Virus record (IMG/VR): IMGVR_UViG_3300042884_000510
Location: 1-33,610 of that record
Direction: 5' to 3' (one strand)
DNA: 33,610 bases
Source of the DNA: a virus
Position numbers and translations under genes: made by a program. Positions 19,377 to 33,610 of the stretch are shown one piece after another; the stretch's first letter is position 1, and each line of letters starts with the position of its first letter. The notes below the pieces were generated by a model. It did no database searches. It was not told where the DNA came from and saw only the letters and a program-made list of their open reading frames with translations.

Positions 19377-20222
19377 TTAAACTCCACACATTCCTGTGCA
19401 TTCGTTACCGAAAAGGGAAAGCTGCCCGCGGTCTTCCTCACTGGAGAAATCCACGGTTTCGATGGGCTGGCAGGATTTGTGAAGAAATGGAATGCCTCGC
19501 ATTGTGGTTGTCTGCTGCTTGGCTGCTTGGAATTGCTTTTCAAACGCCACGGCTGCCGCAAACGCTTCTGGCTCTTCGGTTTTAAGCCTGCGCCATTCGG
19601 CGTCGGAATGGTACGGGCAAAACACGCACGACGACCGCGGTGGCTTTGGGTATCCATTCCGCTCCATCCATGCGATGCAATCTCCGCGACGCATGCCAAG
19701 GTCAACGAGCGGCCATTTTGATTCCGTCCACGGGTCGCGGGATGGCTTCATTCTGTGGACTTCATCCAGCGAGATCCCAATCCACTGAACAACGCCCACG
19801 GTTTTCTGACCTCGTTTGATTCCGCCGAGTTCCCGAGCCTTTCGCAGAATTGGCGCAATCTTGAAGTCGTAGGTACAGGCGCGGGATGGCATCATGCCAA
19901 TCTGGCCGCCCTGCCTGACGTGGCATGGGATGTTCCCGCCTGATATGATGTTGCCCGTTTTGCCAGTGTAAACCTTTGTCAGCTTATCGCTCAACCTGCC
20001 AGCCGTCACCCGGTGAATCGGGAACGGATGCGGGCTGCGCTGGATCTCTGCCTCTAGCCAATCCAGCCAGCGGTAAACGGACGCAGGCTCATCTTGAGTA
20101 TCCGCGAAGATGGCAGAGGAAAGCTGCGGGTATCCGGGTACTTCGCCGCGTGCTGCCATGATAGCCAGCGTTGAAGACTGGACGCCTGCGCCGAGGCTGA
20201 GGATGTGGATGGGGTCGCTCAC
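19377..20222 (-). CDS. PAPS-reductase-family PP-loop enzyme
   Basis: 281 residues from a GTG start that overlaps the upstream stop (GTGA). A longer frame to 20303 has no better start. SLGAGVQSST (9-18) is a PP-loop that would bind ATP or an adenylyl group. SRACTYDFKIAP (113-124) and SSCVFCPYHSDAEW (197-210) are characteristic of the phage branch of phosphoadenosine phosphosulfate reductase-like proteins, related to the DndC fold. Cys199 and Cys202 may bind zinc or an iron-sulfur cluster. The reaction in phages is not known. Sulfur or nucleotide chemistry on nucleic acids or on a cofactor is an inference. A separate Cys-rich end (NECTGMCGV) is notable. Confidence 0.75.
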   Translation of the reverse strand: MSDPIHILSLGAGVQSSTLAIMAARGEVPGYPQLSSAIFADTQDEPASVYRWLDWLEAEIQRSPHPFPIHRVTAGRLSDKLTKVYTGKTGNIISGGNIPCHVRQGGQIGMMPSRACTYDFKIAPILRKARELGGIKRGQKTVGVVQWIGISLDEVHRMKPSRDPWTESKWPLVDLGMRRGDCIAWMERNGYPKPPRSSCVFCPYHSDAEWRRLKTEEPEAFAAAVAFEKQFQAAKQQTTTMRGIPFLHKSCQPIETVDFSSEEDRGQLSLFGNECTGMCGV

Positions 20223-20461
20223 TGATTGACCTCCTGCTTGTGCGCTGCTGCTCTGGCTTTGGCAATTGCATCGGCAGTCGCCTCGTCCGTTTCGTCCTGC
20301 CACATCTGGTGCAGGCAGGACTCATAGACCTCATGCGGCGGTGCCTCGTCATCGGGCACGACGTGCCAGACGAGGTTTGTTTGTGCTGGTCGGTGAGGGA
20401 ATCCGACTTCGGTTAGGAGTTCGGCGAGCTTTTCGGCTTGCTGTTCTGTGAGCGGTGGCAT
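20219..20461 (-). CDS. Small acidic protein, function unknown
   Basis: 80 residues from the ATG at 20461 (MPPLTEQQAEKLAELLTEVG). An amphipathic helix at each end encloses a short strand region (TNLVWHVVPDDEAPPHEVYE). The protein is rich in Glu, Asp and Ala. It lies between the helicase loader and the PP-loop enzyme and overlaps the latter by four bases. No domain was recognised. Confidence 0.55.
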   Translation of the reverse strand: MPPLTEQQAEKLAELLTEVGFPHRPAQTNLVWHVVPDDEAPPHEVYESCLHQMWQDETDEATADAIAKARAAAHKQEVNQ

Positions 20462-21236: not shown

Positions 21237-22131
21237 ATTTCGAGTTAGGGTCGGGTTTGTGCAGGTCGGCTTGTCTCTGGTACTCGTCGTCTGACATGAT
21301 GCCGCCGCGGGATGGGCGGCTATCGCCCAGCTTGTCCAGATTCAATCCCTGCCATCCGCCTGCAATCGCAGACCGGATGCGGTCGGCTACGATCCGGGCA
21401 CCGTGGGATCTGGCAAACTCGTCAACCTGCCGAGCGGTTAGGCGTGCTGCCTGCTCTGTCCAGTCGATGCGTTTGCCGTTCATCGGTGAGCGGTGCCTAG
21501 ACTGACGGTATTGCTGCCATTCGTCCCATGCCGCGATAAGCTCGGCGTCAGCGCTGACGGGCACGACAGCACAGGCAGACGCATCTGGCTCATGAGTGCG
21601 CCGTTTCCGTGTAACAGGGGGAGGAGCGGTAGCGACGACCCTATCTGTGGATTGAGGATCTAGGGATGAGGATTGAGGGATGAGGGATGAGGGATGAGGA
21701 TGGCATGGTTCAAGCATTGCTTGAGGATATGCTTGCGGCATGCTTGCGGGATGCTTGGAGCATGCTTGGAGCATTGCTTGTGCATTGCTTGGAGCATCCG
21801 GCGACCATCGCGCATTCGCCGCCCGCTGCGCTCGGCCCTTGTTTTTCTGCATGCGTTCGACCTGTTCTTGCCTGACTCGCTCCAGCTTGGCATTGCGACG
21901 CTTGCCGTCCTCGCAGATCGGGAACTTGTCCAGCACCGCCGGGGATACATCGCCGCCAGCAAGGCGGGCAAGGATTCGCGGATCTTCGGGCAGCGACTCA
22001 GCGAGCCACTGGTGGCAAAGAAGCGTGATGTACGCGCCACGCTCGGCTAAATCCATGATGGCAGTTCCGGCAATAAACCGCTCGGGGTACATATCAAACC
22101 AGCCAGCGAATGGTTTCGGGTTTTCGCTCAT
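21226..22131 (-). CDS. DUF1376-type replication initiator-like protein with internal iterons
   Basis: 301 residues from the ATG at 22131, preceded by a GGAGGG Shine-Dalgarno and overlapping the HNH stop by four bases. Residues about 8-105 (GWFDMYPERFIAGTAIMDLA onward) match DUF1376, a winged-helix-like domain of phage replication proteins. Residues about 112-160 are a low-complexity linker rich in Gln, Ala, Pro, Ser and His, encoded by tandem DNA repeats. The C-terminal part has helices that could bind the helicase loader encoded next. The plan is like lambda O: DNA-binding domain, linker containing the origin, protein-interaction domain. The start chosen avoids a nine-codon extension. Confidence 0.75.
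   Translation of the reverse strand: MSENPKPFAGWFDMYPERFIAGTAIMDLAERGAYITLLCHQWLAESLPEDPRILARLAGGDVSPAVLDKFPICEDGKRRNAKLERVRQEQVERMQKNKGRAQRAANARWSPDAPSNAQAMLQACSKHPASMPQAYPQAMLEPCHPHPSSLIPQSSSLDPQSTDRVVATAPPPVTRKRRTHEPDASACAVVPVSADAELIAAWDEWQQYRQSRHRSPMNGKRIDWTEQAARLTARQVDEFARSHGARIVADRIRSAIAGGWQGLNLDKLGDSRPSRGGIMSDDEYQRQADLHKPDPNSKYGF
21650..21797. repeat. Iteron array, putative replication origin
   Basis: Plus-strand GCTTG repeats start at 21719, 21731, 21742, 21753, 21764, 21776 and 21787, that is every 11-12 bases, with consensus GCATGCTTGGA. A 15-base palindrome, TCAAGCATTGCTTGA, lies at 21710-21724. Beside it, 7-base units of the GGATGAG type repeat about seven times from 21650 to 21698. 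The 11-base period is one helical turn and is out of phase with codons, so selection seems to act on DNA. The site lies inside the initiator-like gene, as in lambda. No strong AT-rich unwinding segment was seen beside it. Confidence 0.65.
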
Positions 22132-22439
22132 GCGCCCTCCTTCCTTGCTCCTCGGCAATCATCGCAAATGACAGACCGCTCCTTGATATGTTTAGCTTTG
22201 AGCCTGACGCGAGCGCAGGAAGCACAACGGTGCGCATCTTCATGGCATGCCCGGCAAAGCATGACCAGATTTTCCGGCGGATCAAAGTCTCCCCATGCGC
22301 AATATCGGACATGGTGAGGCTCCGTCTCGGTAATCAGCAGACAATGCTCGCAACTGCCATTCGCCCGGCGGGCAGCGAGAGCCACGGATCGCCGGAATTG
22401 TGGGTGTGCGAGATACTCGGCGTAAGTGCTGTAGCTCAT
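22128..22439 (-). CDS. HNH nuclease with extra zinc ribbon
   Basis: 103 residues. Cys30-x2-Cys33, the His-His pair at 42-43, Asn57, Cys62-x2-Cys65 and His66/His70 form an HNH zinc-nuclease core (ETEPHHVRYC, then ENLVMLCRACHEDAH). A second ribbon, Cys72-x2-Cys75 and Cys92-x2-Cys95, follows. It may nick or cut DNA. Candidate roles are homing, packaging and host DNA breakdown. Both neighbours overlap it by four bases, so it is a stable part of the operon rather than a recent insertion. Confidence 0.75.
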   Translation of the reverse strand: MSYSTYAEYLAHPQFRRSVALAARRANGSCEHCLLITETEPHHVRYCAWGDFDPPENLVMLCRACHEDAHRCASCARVRLKAKHIKERSVICDDCRGARKEGA

Positions 22440-23863
22440 TTTCTGCGTGGCTCCATTTGTGTGAGTTTCATTCCCGGCGCTGTCAGTAGATTCGGCTTGA
22501 GGTAGTACGGCACACCTTGTGCCCGACACTGCGCCACCACGTCAGCGACCCACTCGAAATCCGGCGCAAACTCCGGCACAAATCCTTCCGGCTGGCGGGT
22601 GGATGTCTGCGCGCCAATAACAACCAGATCACACCACGACAAGTCTCCGAATGTGATTGGCTCAAGCATCGGCTCCAGACTGATCCATCGGACAATGCCG
22701 GAATGAACATCAAACGCGGTCATGTCAGCAGTCACTCGCTCCACGTCGCCCTGCTTAATGATGGATGCTCCGAACCATGCCTTAGGCAGAGACGCGAGCA
22801 TCTGATAACGGCGCGGCCATTTCGTCAGGAAAAGATATTCCCACTCCGGCGATTCGGCGCACGCAGCGAATACCTTTTCGATCCACGAATCCGGCACCCA
22901 TTTGCCAAACAGGTCAGCCATGGAACAGACGAAAACGCGACCGTCCCGCGGATCATCTGAGTCTCTGCGCTTCGTGTTCTTCGGCGCGGACAGTCGGTAA
23001 TCGTGGAACGCCGGAGCGAACTGGAACGGATAGACTGCTGCCATCCGGTCATTGTGCGCAATCTCTCTGGCGTAGCAGAACTTGCAGCCGTGATTGCACC
23101 CGGTCACTGGGTTCCACGTCCACGAAGCCCATGAAACGGAATCATTGGTTTGGTTGAAGATCGGATTGCTGGGCTTGTCGATCTCGGCGCTGCGTCCGTC
23201 CACTGTCACGATGACGGCTTTTTCCCGTGCTATCGGTTCTGGCTTTTTCTCCAGACCTTCCGCCTTTGCCGCGGCGATGATTGGAGCCACCTGCTTCAAT
23301 CCCTCCTTCAGCGTCAGCTTGCCGTCCAGCACGGCCTGCGCGACATCCGGCGCGGCCTTCTGAATCTTCGTGGCGGCATCGACGTATTTGCCATTCACTC
23401 CGGCAGCGTTTCCGGCGGCATCGCGGGACTTGGATTGGTCACTTGGTGGAACTTTTTCCACAATGTCCACCAAATCATTTCGCTGCCCTTGCCGTTTTTT
23501 CGCCTGCTCATCGTAGAACGGTCGGAGCCGTGCGGCGATGATTGCACGCTGGCCTGCGTCGAATTTCTTGGCATGCAGGTTCTTGGCAGTGACGTATGCC
23601 AGCACATATTCCGGCTCAATGTCCTCCACCTCGAAAAGCGACTGAGTGACCGACACAGCAAGCAGGCGGTTCCGCCCGTCAATCAGCAGCCCGGTTCCCT
23701 TTTCACGCAGTAGCTTTTCGGCAACGCCAACCTTTGAGATATGGTCAACGAGTTCCCAGAACTCATCCTCCGGTTTCATCGGAAACACGTCAGCGATAGG
23801 ATGCACGCCCGTAAACTCGGGATAATCGCGGATAACGTCTTGGATCTTTGGGATGGTCTTCAT
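22436..23863 (-). CDS. ParB/Srx domain fused to a radical-SAM-like DUF5131 (Gp37/Gp68) domain
   Basis: 475 residues from the ATG at 23863, four bases after the partner gene. Residues about 20-110 form a ParB/Srx nuclease-like domain with the signature GLLIDGRNRLLAV (58-70). Residues about 110-210 are helical and Lys/Ala-rich, resembling a ParB helix-turn-helix part and linker. Residues about 240-460 carry the DUF5131/Gp37-Gp68 domain: SWTWNPVTGCNHGCKFCYAR (248-267) has the three cysteines Cys256, Cys260 and Cys263 (CX3CX2C) that bind a 4Fe-4S cluster in radical SAM enzymes. LFLTKWP and WISLEPML are further family marks. The substrate is unknown; DNA is likely because of the ParB part (inference). 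It is paired with a TcmP-like gene, as in many genomes. Confidence 0.8.
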   Translation of the reverse strand: MKTIPKIQDVIRDYPEFTGVHPIADVFPMKPEDEFWELVDHISKVGVAEKLLREKGTGLLIDGRNRLLAVSVTQSLFEVEDIEPEYVLAYVTAKNLHAKKFDAGQRAIIAARLRPFYDEQAKKRQGQRNDLVDIVEKVPPSDQSKSRDAAGNAAGVNGKYVDAATKIQKAAPDVAQAVLDGKLTLKEGLKQVAPIIAAAKAEGLEKKPEPIAREKAVIVTVDGRSAEIDKPSNPIFNQTNDSVSWASWTWNPVTGCNHGCKFCYAREIAHNDRMAAVYPFQFAPAFHDYRLSAPKNTKRRDSDDPRDGRVFVCSMADLFGKWVPDSWIEKVFAACAESPEWEYLFLTKWPRRYQMLASLPKAWFGASIIKQGDVERVTADMTAFDVHSGIVRWISLEPMLEPITFGDLSWCDLVVIGAQTSTRQPEGFVPEFAPDFEWVADVVAQCRAQGVPYYLKPNLLTAPGMKLTQMEPRRK

Positions 23864-23867
23864 GGTA

Positions 23868-24668
23868 TTACTGGATTTCGGATTGAGTGAGGAAGAGTTC
23901 TTTGAATTTTGCTTCAATGGCTTTGCGTCCGTGGATCTTGAGCGAAAGCCCATCGACTCCGGCGGGCCAGATTTTATTCCCTGCTTTGATGGATGACGCG
24001 AGCGTTTCCGCTGCCCAGACTTTAGGAATAGATGCCAGATAGGCCCATTGCGAGGCATCGCGCACTAGCCAGATAAGCAGGATGTCGTGCCGCCGATTGA
24101 CTCGCTGAGTGACATTCATCGCGGTCTTCATCCATTGTTCCCGGTCTTCCCGCGGTAGTCGCTTGCAGCCGCCGACGTTGCATCCCAGCGTCATCAGGAA
24201 CAACGTCTCCGGCGTAAACGAATCAATGAGTTCCGAGGTAACTGGCAACGTCGTGATGGCGTTCGGGTCCGCATAGATAAAGACGCAGTCCTTCGGTCTG
24301 TGCTGGATCTGCCGGATCGTCCATCCTTTGCTGTCCATGTTGGCAAGGCTCATGTTGTCCGTCCCGCTGAATCGGGAACTGAGCCTGCGGAAGGTTGTTT
24401 CCTCACGCTCAAACAAATGGGCAGTGCGAGACTTGATGCGGTGACTTCCGGCGAATGTCGATTTGATGTGCTTGGCGATAATTGCCGGGCTCGACTGCTC
24501 GCTTTGACCGTACCCGAGACCGTCACCAGCGCACATGTCCACGATAGTGATTGCCGGATTGCATGGCGTCCTGCCTGTGCTGATTGCGCCGATGATCCGG
24601 CCCAGCATGTGATTGAGTAGCCAATGCTTGAATGGCGTCCTGCTTGATGTTCCTACTGTTGTTTCCAT
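23868..24668 (-). CDS. tcmP: Three-Cys-motif partner protein (TcmP)-like
   Basis: 266 residues. TPFKHWLLNHMLGRII (11-26) and TIVDMCAGDGLGYGQSEQSS (41-60) are the start and the glycine-rich VD..AG.G motif of TcmP proteins, which resemble a methyltransferase-like fold. HLFEREETTFRRL and FIYADPNA follow the usual spacing. TcmP proteins were named for genes beside three-Cys-motif radical-SAM-like proteins, and exactly such a gene follows here. The length is typical. The activity of the family is not known. The start ATG stands immediately after a terminator-type hairpin. Confidence 0.75.
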   Translation of the reverse strand: METTVGTSSRTPFKHWLLNHMLGRIIGAISTGRTPCNPAITIVDMCAGDGLGYGQSEQSSPAIIAKHIKSTFAGSHRIKSRTAHLFEREETTFRRLSSRFSGTDNMSLANMDSKGWTIRQIQHRPKDCVFIYADPNAITTLPVTSELIDSFTPETLFLMTLGCNVGGCKRLPREDREQWMKTAMNVTQRVNRRHDILLIWLVRDASQWAYLASIPKVWAAETLASSIKAGNKIWPAGVDGLSLKIHGRKAIEAKFKELFLTQSEIQ

Positions 24669-31178: not shown

Positions 31179-33610
31179 TTATGGAGCAAGCCCCACGGTG
31201 ATCTCGCTGAAGGCAGGGGCGCTAACCAATCCCCTGTGCTTTTGTTGCACGGTTATCGTACCTCCCGCCGTAATCCCAATCTCAGCAAGCAGGACATGCC
31301 CGCGGGTTGCGGTATCGGTCGGCGTTCCCGCCTGCTTGATGATGCTGCCACTCTCTGGATAGGTCGCCTTCCGCCGGATGCTGGCGGTGGTGTAGACCGA
31401 TATCGTCGCACTGGTCCCGCTCTCGCCATCATCGCCTTCTGCGCCGTAGCCGCCCGCTCCACCTGGTCCGCCGGATCCGCCAGCGTTGCCAGCATATGCG
31501 CCGCCCGGGGAGCCAGCAGCAGAGCCGCCTGCGCCGCCTGCCCCGGCTCCGGTTCCGCCCGCGCCGAATCCTAGAGTTGTGCCAACCCCGCCGTCGTCAC
31601 CGTCACTGCCAACGGTCCCGGCTGACCCGCCGCCACCACCACCACCACCACCACCACCTTGACCACCTCCACCACCTCCGCCGCCGTGACCTCCCTTACC
31701 ACCCGTACCTCCAGTGACCGTTACCGTGCTGCCGCCAGTGAGCGAGCCAACCGATGACGTGTCGCGGTTCAGATAGTCAATCCTCAACCAGATTTTATCC
31801 CCATCACTAACGGAAAACGTCTCGCCCGCCACGTCAAACGTGCGCCCGATTTTCTCCAGCACGCCGGAAGCGTTGACCTCGGGACCGTACACCTTGCCTC
31901 CTAGCACCTCCACTTCGGTGGCGGTTTTGGCTAGGACTTGGAAATATTCCTTTGCCGGGGCAGGCGTTGACCTAACCGAATTCCGCTTAGACCCGGCAAC
32001 GCTGCCTTTAACGTTTGGATTCGTCTGGGTGGCTTCTGTCCTGACTGAGCCAGAGGTAAAGCTAGGCTTCACCGCCCTCTCGCCGCCGCGTAAGAGCCCG
32101 ATGAAATCCTCTGGTGTTAGGCCCCGGTTAATGGGTCCGTAGTTGACCGTAGTGCGCCCCGAGAAAATGTCGGCGGTAACTGACTGGATGATGGCACCCG
32201 TCAGCGGGAATGCGCCTGTGAGTGTCAGTCGTTTGCCGGGTACGATTGACCTATCCACCTCGTCCGCCACCCACGAGATGCTGCCTGCTGGCGCCTCCGT
32301 GCTAAGTGCATCATAATAGGATTGAGCCAGACCAACAGGGGCAGACTCGCCACCGCTGCTTGCGCTTGTCTGGTAAGTGGTCGTTTCCGCGTCCGTGCCT
32401 GTCAGGTCAACGGTCAGTGTCAACTCCTTTGACGCCCCCGAGAACAAGCCTGCTAGGTTTTCGTTCCATGTGCTGCCAGTCCAGCGCAGCACGACCGTCA
32501 CTTTCGTGGGGCACGCACTGATGCCAGACTGCCACGGAGGAATGGCACCCGCCAGTAACTCCCGAGGATAGCGCGGAACGCCACCGGATTCGGGAATGCT
32601 GCCAAGTCCTACCTTCTTGGTGGTGTCAACTTCCTGCGAGACACTGACAACTGCCACCTGCCCCGCCACGAAATTCAAGTCCCGAAGCTCCGGAAAATGG
32701 TCCTTGAGCCAGTCCCCGGTAACGGCGCCCGTGCTGGTCGGGATGGTTTCCGTCACGCATTGCTGTTGCTGCGTCGTTATGTTAGGACCGTAGAGCGCGA
32801 TGGTGCGGCGGACGATGTCCAGACCGCTTGTCTGGTTAGCGGTCTGCGTCGTGAGCGTAGTGTACGGCGTTCCATCAACCGTCGTCGTCGTCTCAAACGT
32901 CAAGACAACGCCGCGCACCGCCCGACGCTGCAATGGCTTTGCGCGGTATGACTTCGCGCCGCTGCCTGTGCCGCTGGATGCCTTCGTTACGATGGTCGCA
33001 AGGTCCGTGGGCTTTTGTACGTTCAGCGTGCTGGCAGCATGGTCAAAATAGACAATCGCATCAGGATGCCAGCGCAGGATGCTCTGGATGACCTCCCAAC
33101 ATGAAGTATCGACCACCTCGAATTTCGGGAAATAGATTGCGCCGGATGGCAGAATTGAGCCAGCGGAGACGCCCGTGGCGCTGTTGGCATACGTCAGGAC
33201 ATCAGTTACTGATTCCGCAGTGGTCTGCGTCTCATCATCGTTGCTGATCCCAACGACGCACCGAGTTTTGAATGCGTAGGCTTGCGTTGGCGTAGCGGGA
33301 CCGACCGCATATTGCTGTTGATAGGCTATCCTGCGCAGGTTGCCGCTCTTGGCATCTGCAACGATGGTGTACCCTTCGCGCTCGCCGTCCGCGTAGGGCT
33401 CAATCTTAGTGACGTAGCCGCGGAAGTAGACGGTGCCACTGTAGGCAATAACGATGTTGTCATTGACTATACACGGAGCCACTGCCGTTGCGTTGATGGC
33501 ATACGTTAGGTTGAGTTGGTCAATGCCTCCCGCTTGGAAATTGACCGACGCCGAGGAAATCAGAGCAGTCTGAAACGATACCGCTGCGTTGGCGTTGATC
33601 TGAACCGTCC
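31179..33610 (-). CDS. Tail hub / baseplate protein with polyglycine C-terminal domain (5' end at 1-149)
   Basis: The main part of an 817-residue protein; the first 49 codons are at bases 149-1. The N-terminal third, with GTVYFRGYVTKIEPYADGER and EGYTIVADAKSGNLRRIAYQ, matches tail-hub proteins of the gpD/gp27 type, which close the tail tube. VDTSCWEVIQSILRWHPDA is also typical. Residues about 632-737 are glycine-rich with long Gly runs and G-x-x-like repeats (GGKGGHGGGGGGGGQGG, then GAGGTGAGAGGAGGSAAGSP), as in polyglycine-helix adhesins. The last 70 residues are a strand-rich cap. It would combine hub and host-binding tip. The gene ends at the convergent terminator. Confidence 0.7.
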   Translation of the reverse strand, partial: TVQINANAAVSFQTALISSASVNFQAGGIDQLNLTYAINATAVAPCIVNDNIVIAYSGTVYFRGYVTKIEPYADGEREGYTIVADAKSGNLRRIAYQQQYAVGPATPTQAYAFKTRCVVGISNDDETQTTAESVTDVLTYANSATGVSAGSILPSGAIYFPKFEVVDTSCWEVIQSILRWHPDAIVYFDHAASTLNVQKPTDLATIVTKASSGTGSGAKSYRAKPLQRRAVRGVVLTFETTTTVDGTPYTTLTTQTANQTSGLDIVRRTIALYGPNITTQQQQCVTETIPTSTGAVTGDWLKDHFPELRDLNFVAGQVAVVSVSQEVDTTKKVGLGSIPESGGVPRYPRELLAGAIPPWQSGISACPTKVTVVLRWTGSTWNENLAGLFSGASKELTLTVDLTGTDAETTTYQTSASSGGESAPVGLAQSYYDALSTEAPAGSISWVADEVDRSIVPGKRLTLTGAFPLTGAIIQSVTADIFSGRTTVNYGPINRGLTPEDFIGLLRGGERAVKPSFTSGSVRTEATQTNPNVKGSVAGSKRNSVRSTPAPAKEYFQVLAKTATEVEVLGGKVYGPEVNASGVLEKIGRTFDVAGETFSVSDGDKIWLRIDYLNRDTSSVGSLTGGSTVTVTGGTGGKGGHGGGGGGGGQGGGGGGGGGGGSAGTVGSDGDDGGVGTTLGFGAGGTGAGAGGAGGSAAGSPGGAYAGNAGGSGGPGGAGGYGAEGDDGESGTSATISVYTTASIRRKATYPESGSIIKQAGTPTDTATRGHVLLAEIGITAGGTITVQQKHRGLVSAPAFSEITVGLAP
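33484..33610. repeat. Terminal direct repeat, right copy
   Basis: Second copy of the 127-base end repeat, identical to bases 1-127. Removing one copy gives a 33,483 bp circle. The copy lies inside the hub gene and carries no stop in that frame. Confidence 0.95.

Follow-up and report, generated by a model that had tools for sequence, protein, structure and literature searches.

A TcmP-like protein and a ParB–DUF5131 radical-SAM fusion in a phage replication operon: a candidate DNA-targeted modification module

What do a TcmP-like protein and a radical-SAM-like DUF5131 protein do together among the early genes of a phage? Genes of the two families are widespread, and their pairing is a listed defence candidate with no known reaction. 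We have analysed a phage version of this pair, carried by IMG/VR virus record IMGVR_UViG_3300042884_000510 (the window, 33,610 nucleotides in full). The original prediction described a TcmP-like gene paired with a ParB/radical-SAM fusion inside a phage early operon, and both genes are indeed present, on the minus strand, where they fill positions 22436–24668. From the phage version come a predicted DNA target, a fold for each partner, a partnership that looks obligate and a third member, and it makes the function of TcmP and DUF5131 directly testable.

The gene for the TcmP-like protein (P0002, 266 aa; 23868–24668) ends four bases before the ATG of the fusion gene (P0001, 475 aa; 22436–23863). 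The longest open reading frame of the fusion is 540 aa long; its start was assigned to the internal ATG at 23863 because the relatives share the N-terminus MKTIPKI and have their own starts on the TcmP stop or shortly ahead of it. The fusion stop overlaps by 4 bases (22436–22439) the start of a gene on the same strand for a small HNH protein of 103 aa (22128–22439), a third module part in many relatives. The HNH gene in turn overlaps, at its stop, the beginning of a DUF1376 replication-type gene, after which comes a DnaC-like gene. Genes for RecT, a DUF3799 nuclease and RusA are found upstream of the module, and those for the terminase, the portal and the head protease further on in the window. 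With RecT, RusA, DUF1376 and DnaC-like genes as neighbours, the module is located in the phage replication operon.

In the fusion, a ParB N-terminal domain (about residues 1–126; 23486–23863), bearing the boxes DGRNR (62–66) and NL(H)RR-like (95–99), is followed by a central helical/HTH part (about residues 143–205; 23249–23437) and by the DUF5131 radical-SAM domain (about residues 240–457; 22493–23146), all on the minus strand. The predicted model has a mean pLDDT of 89.9 and a flexible link at 128–143 where pLDDT falls below 50. Neither PF02195 nor any other Pfam ParB model matched P0001, and PF02195 was matched by 6 of 43 relatives of the fusion. A profile of the fusion family matched the solved ParB/Noc structures at about E 1e-8 (1.4e-8) over about residues 7–212, that is, the N-domain and the HTH, and Foldseek paired the N-terminal part with ParB, Noc and KorB at probability 1.00. 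The ParB part announced by the original prediction is real and comprises a complete ParB N-domain together with the HTH, in one chain with DUF5131, so that a DNA target is well motivated; judged by domains and fold, this part probably binds DNA. As in ParB, Noc and KorB, the N-domain precedes the HTH and related boxes are found, but in the fusion an enzyme domain sits where those proteins have their dimerisation domain, and the CTP-box residues are only partly kept: the G-R-N-R and N-L-x-R-R boxes, retained in most fusions, differ from the GERR and ENLQR of ParB CTP boxes. Among the extended viral DUF5131 proteins some N-terminal extensions are degenerate or replaced. In one of them (L061:2023–3231) DUF3102 takes the place of ParB before DUF5131, a swapped targeting domain. 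Proteins with a ParB domain are known as neighbours of phage DNA methyltransferases, or in fusion with them (PMC12783734), for instance in CmoX contexts; those systems and a candidate DNA-modifying fusion such as ours both join a ParB part to an enzyme, which is a radical-SAM protein here and a cytosine-5 enzyme there.

The C-terminal part of the fusion matches PF07505 (DUF5131) with an E value of 2e-36 (126 bits against a cut-off of 28.9), and the Radical_SAM motif is present. The CX3CX2C motif that had been predicted (C256, C260 and C263; 23075–23098, minus strand), the expected [4Fe-4S] site, is invariant in the 43 phage and 45 bacterial sequences compared (88 in total). Besides these cysteines, phage and bacterial DUF5131 proteins have in common W245, WNP, Y264, S314-M315, D317, T347-K348, S395, E397-P398, G417, W438 and K456, which argues for one chemistry. 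In the radical-SAM superfamily three cysteines bind a [4Fe-4S] cluster, which cleaves SAM to give the 5'-deoxyadenosyl radical. At the sequence level no relative of this domain was found in the PDB, the best matches (E up to 10) being chance ones; by VIA-align its nearest structure is spore photoproduct lyase (Z 14.4, rmsd 3.4, 219 residues), and RlmN is the next family (Z 11.4). Viperin-like nucleotide chemistry was rejected, as viperin-like structures reached Z 10.3 against 14.4 for spore photoproduct lyase and the PADLOC pVip model an E value of only 0.02.

The domain resembles spore photoproduct lyase in the CX3CX2C motif, the overall fold and a tyrosine immediately following the third cysteine, but differs from it in having no sequence-level match, a fused ParB part, an obligate partner and no invariant fourth cysteine. 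In spore photoproduct lyase a fourth cysteine, outside the cluster motif, is the hydrogen donor. Among our 88 sequences no cysteine outside CX3CX2C is invariant; the nearest column, C313, holds C, G or S in phages and N in bacteria, and a straight spore photoproduct lyase function was rejected on this ground. A wider repair role, in which the radical enzyme would reverse or process a lesion or a cross-link like spore photoproduct lyase, guided by the ParB/HTH part during replication, would suit this nearest solved fold, the recombination and replication genes around the module and the Ku and DNA ligase genes that lie beside it on a Streptomyces plasmid. However, the hydrogen donor has no invariant counterpart, and repair of this kind leaves the near-obligate methyltransferase partner without a role; we consider this explanation unlikely.

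The partner, P0002, matched no Pfam or NCBIfam model, TIGR04474 at its cut-off included, and gave a weak match (E 0.003) to the PADLOC model PDC-M30A. TIGR04474 was matched by 15 of the 40 P0002 relatives in the alignment, at best with 3.8e-49, and hhalign linked the phage family to bacterial TcmP with 51% (E 1.5e-4) directly and with 98.4% and 98.9% through an intermediate family. Taken with the gene order, these matches suggest that P0002 is a remote TcmP, presumably too divergent for TIGR04474. A scan with P0002 alone as query retrieved nothing, and an alignment was needed. The predicted model of P0002 (pLDDT 91.3, pTM 0.90) has RlmJ and a homologue as all its best structural matches (Z 17.6, 209 residues, rmsd 3.0), other methyltransferases following at Z about 14 (13.9) and 12. 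Prediction of each protein singly, which had been suggested as a check, thus gave a ParB/HTH plus radical-SAM fold for the fusion and an RlmJ-like class I methyltransferase fold for the TcmP-like protein. In 40 divergent TcmP-like proteins K14, G48, L96 and D134 are invariant and D44, G50, S60, E87 and P135 nearly so; these are the places where SAM-binding residues and motif IV are normally found, and the family-conserved motifs read D44-x-x-A-G-x-G50 and D134-P135.

RlmJ is the 23S rRNA A2030 N6-methyltransferase. TcmP shares with it the fold over nearly the whole length, motif I, the acidic residue after strand 2 and the Asp-Pro of motif IV, and K14-H15 of P0002 are presumably equivalent to K18-H19 of RlmJ, in agreement with the structural ranges (4 to 8). 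Unlike RlmJ, with which it has 13% identity, TcmP has a DNA-linked partner, and the DPPY of RlmJ is replaced by DPN in the phage set and by DPF in the bacterial one. Both RlmJ, the top fold match of TcmP, and RlmN, the second one of the radical domain, act on RNA. These matches, and the lack of a ParB part in the bacterial copies, would be explained if TcmP and the radical enzyme modified rRNA or tRNA in the manner of RlmJ and RlmN, with the ParB part only regulating or tethering them. Yet a complete ParB N-domain plus HTH, which some 40 divergent viral copies carry as a fusion, would be an odd way of tethering an RNA enzyme, and the extra cysteines of RlmN are missing from the radical domain; an RNA target is in our opinion improbable.

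Does TcmP always accompany the fusion, as the original prediction wondered? Our scan of viral contigs used patterns of the radical-SAM domain only, so that neither TcmP nor ParB influenced the choice of loci. It yielded 71 loci, 51 of them non-redundant, in which the DUF5131 protein either is extended at its N-terminus by at least 110 aa (43 loci) or is short (8 loci). A TcmP-like gene, mostly with a short overlap, adjoins 42 of the 43 extended proteins (41 by clustering and one, L055, by HMM) and none of the 8 short ones, and the exception (L076) is without a demonstrated ParB domain. The pairing of TcmP with extended DUF5131 proteins in phages is near-obligate and far beyond chance. The two partners also co-diverge (r 0.77 with the radical-SAM domain and 0.85 with the ParB part; 0 of 2000 permutations), a correlation that shared ancestry confounds. 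In GenBank phages with a short DUF5131 protein (mycobacteriophages, Gordonia phages and Enterocloster phages) TcmP is mostly missing, PantheRoc being an exception, and annotated DNA methylases are often near TcmP-less DUF5131 genes, as occurs in Bakery, Matteo, Dulem virus 34, vir524, Labrenzia V1 and LunaStella.

In bacteria the same order is observed, with TcmP directly upstream of DUF5131 in 33 of 39 TcmP matches. In a sample of 296 bacterial genomes from one phylum, DUF5131 was found above the cut-off in 58 and TcmP in 35, against a single occurrence of the ParB–DUF5131 fusion, at a contig end (G140), so that the fusion with ParB is chiefly a feature of phages and plasmids. It is carried together with TcmP by two plasmids of Streptomyces (L179 and L180). 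In the first of them, a linear plasmid of Streptomyces caniferus, the two genes adjoin those for Ku and an ATP-dependent DNA ligase. The phage module thus shares with the bacterial TcmP–DUF5131 pair (TIGR04474 plus PF07505) both gene families, their order and the conserved radical-SAM residues, but its radical domain is joined to a ParB N-domain plus HTH, a part absent from the bacterial pair, its TcmP is more divergent, an HNH gene is its third member and its site is a phage replication operon.

That the pair is known from gene neighbourhoods had been recognised, and it stands; the original prediction lacked the listing of the bacterial pair as PDC-M30/M41, the RlmJ-like fold of TcmP and the HNH gene of many copies. 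The TcmP–DUF5131 pair is thus already known as a listed defence candidate. In the literature searched we found no paper on DUF5131 and no description of the fusion with ParB, of the RlmJ-like fold, of the link to HNH or of the near-obligate pairing in phages, and the expectation of an undescribed activity seems fair. In PADLOC the radical domain of the fusion matches PDC-M41B (1e-33) and PDC-M30B (4e-32), strong matches beside the weak one of P0002, and the bacterial TcmP proteins are PDC-M30A, with E values to 3e-157. The neighbourhoods of ten bacterial pairs hold PADLOC matches, type I restriction systems among them, far in excess of control regions of the same contigs, a comparison that is suggestive only, given the redundancy among PADLOC models, some residual TcmP copies in the test set and the small number of regions. 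Among 100 P. aeruginosa strains, 32 carry PDC-M30, and 68.8% of these carriers are phage-resistant (PMC10855318). In the Gordonia phage PantheRoc (L216:2507–4239, gp40–gp41) a short DUF5131 gene and an unannotated TcmP-like gene (E 3e-14) lie by the immunity repressor and the integrase, and this pair is likely a lysogeny-expressed copy. Surroundings of this kind are a frequent site of prophage defence genes. The module could on these grounds be a phage-borne, mobile version of PDC-M30/M41 for superinfection exclusion, in which the ParB/HTH part would sense DNA and either the HNH protein or the radical enzyme would be the effector. However, the window and its relatives have the module by replication initiation genes and not in a lysogeny-expressed cargo spot, and no published functional test of PDC-M30 was found in the literature searched; we hold anti-phage defence to be rather unlikely.

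The third gene takes more than one position. The window HNH protein has the HNH motif with the zinc cysteines, scores 21.4 bits with PF01844, exactly at the cut-off, and matches the HNH PHROG with 1e-6. An HNH gene directly follows the fusion in the group of the window, in that of L015 and L016 and in that of L022–L028; in L045, L047 and the Streptomyces plasmid L180 it separates TcmP from the fusion. In L057 (231–1226) TcmP and HNH are naturally fused in a single chain, directly upstream of the ParB–DUF5131 gene, and a partial protein in L062 is likewise fused. That HNH takes two positions and is also fused to TcmP suggests a functional link more than mere common descent. The L057 fusion also bridges the HNH and TcmP gene clusters. 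Many copies of the module lack HNH, and in others ThyX or further genes occupy that place. ThyX (PF02511; E 1e-52 in L018, 5401–6162) comes directly after ParB–DUF5131 in L018, L019, L021 and L023.

We propose, as a plausible but still tentative reading, that the TcmP-like protein and the fusion form a two-enzyme, DNA-targeted nucleobase-modification module that marks phage DNA and is expressed with the replication genes. The ParB N-domain and HTH would keep the radical-SAM domain on DNA, where the cluster bound by the three cysteines would cleave SAM and the resulting radical would attack a C-H of a DNA base or sugar, as spore photoproduct lyase does. The RlmJ-like TcmP, to judge from its fold and conserved motifs, may methylate the same or a neighbouring base, or prepare it. 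Translation along with the replication genes would lead to marking of the nascent phage DNA, and where an HNH gene is present, as here, its product might cut unmarked DNA or process modified DNA, which is the weakest step of the scheme. The nearest folds of both partners are nucleic-acid enzymes, which counts for DNA modification, as do the TcmP adjacency, the order in bacteria, the co-divergence, the ParB/HTH matches, the radical-domain core residues shared with bacterial copies, the HNH adjacency and fusions, the nearby methylases, the ParB-linked phage methyltransferases and the replication operon. Against it count the lack of an invariant fourth cysteine, the DPN in place of DPPY, the many copies without HNH and the RNA substrates of RlmJ and RlmN. 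Since the bacterial pair has no ParB part, DNA may be the target of the phage version only, or just its tether. Of what the original prediction deduced from the ParB link, a DNA target is well motivated and nucleic-acid modification fits both folds; these data do not separate modification from repair, counter-defence or phage-borne defence. A doubtful extension of our proposal is that the ParB-guided radical-SAM enzyme and the RlmJ-like methyltransferase build an undescribed DNA base modification and the HNH protein discriminates unmarked DNA, which would make the whole a compact phage-borne modification-restriction module, with the bacterial TcmP–DUF5131 pair as its ParB-less cellular form.

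Two further genes of the window deserve mention. The early region starts with a 767-aa open reading frame (31179–33482, minus strand) that has no PHROG match. A PAPS-reductase-like (PP-loop) phage protein is encoded two genes beyond the DnaC-like one (19377–20303, minus strand; phrog_424, E 1e-45); a direct tie to the module was rejected, as no homologue was seen in the relatives compared, whose flanks are short. In the Mycobacterium prophage prophiGD08-3 (L213), a PAPS-reductase-like gene comes immediately after a short DUF5131 gene.
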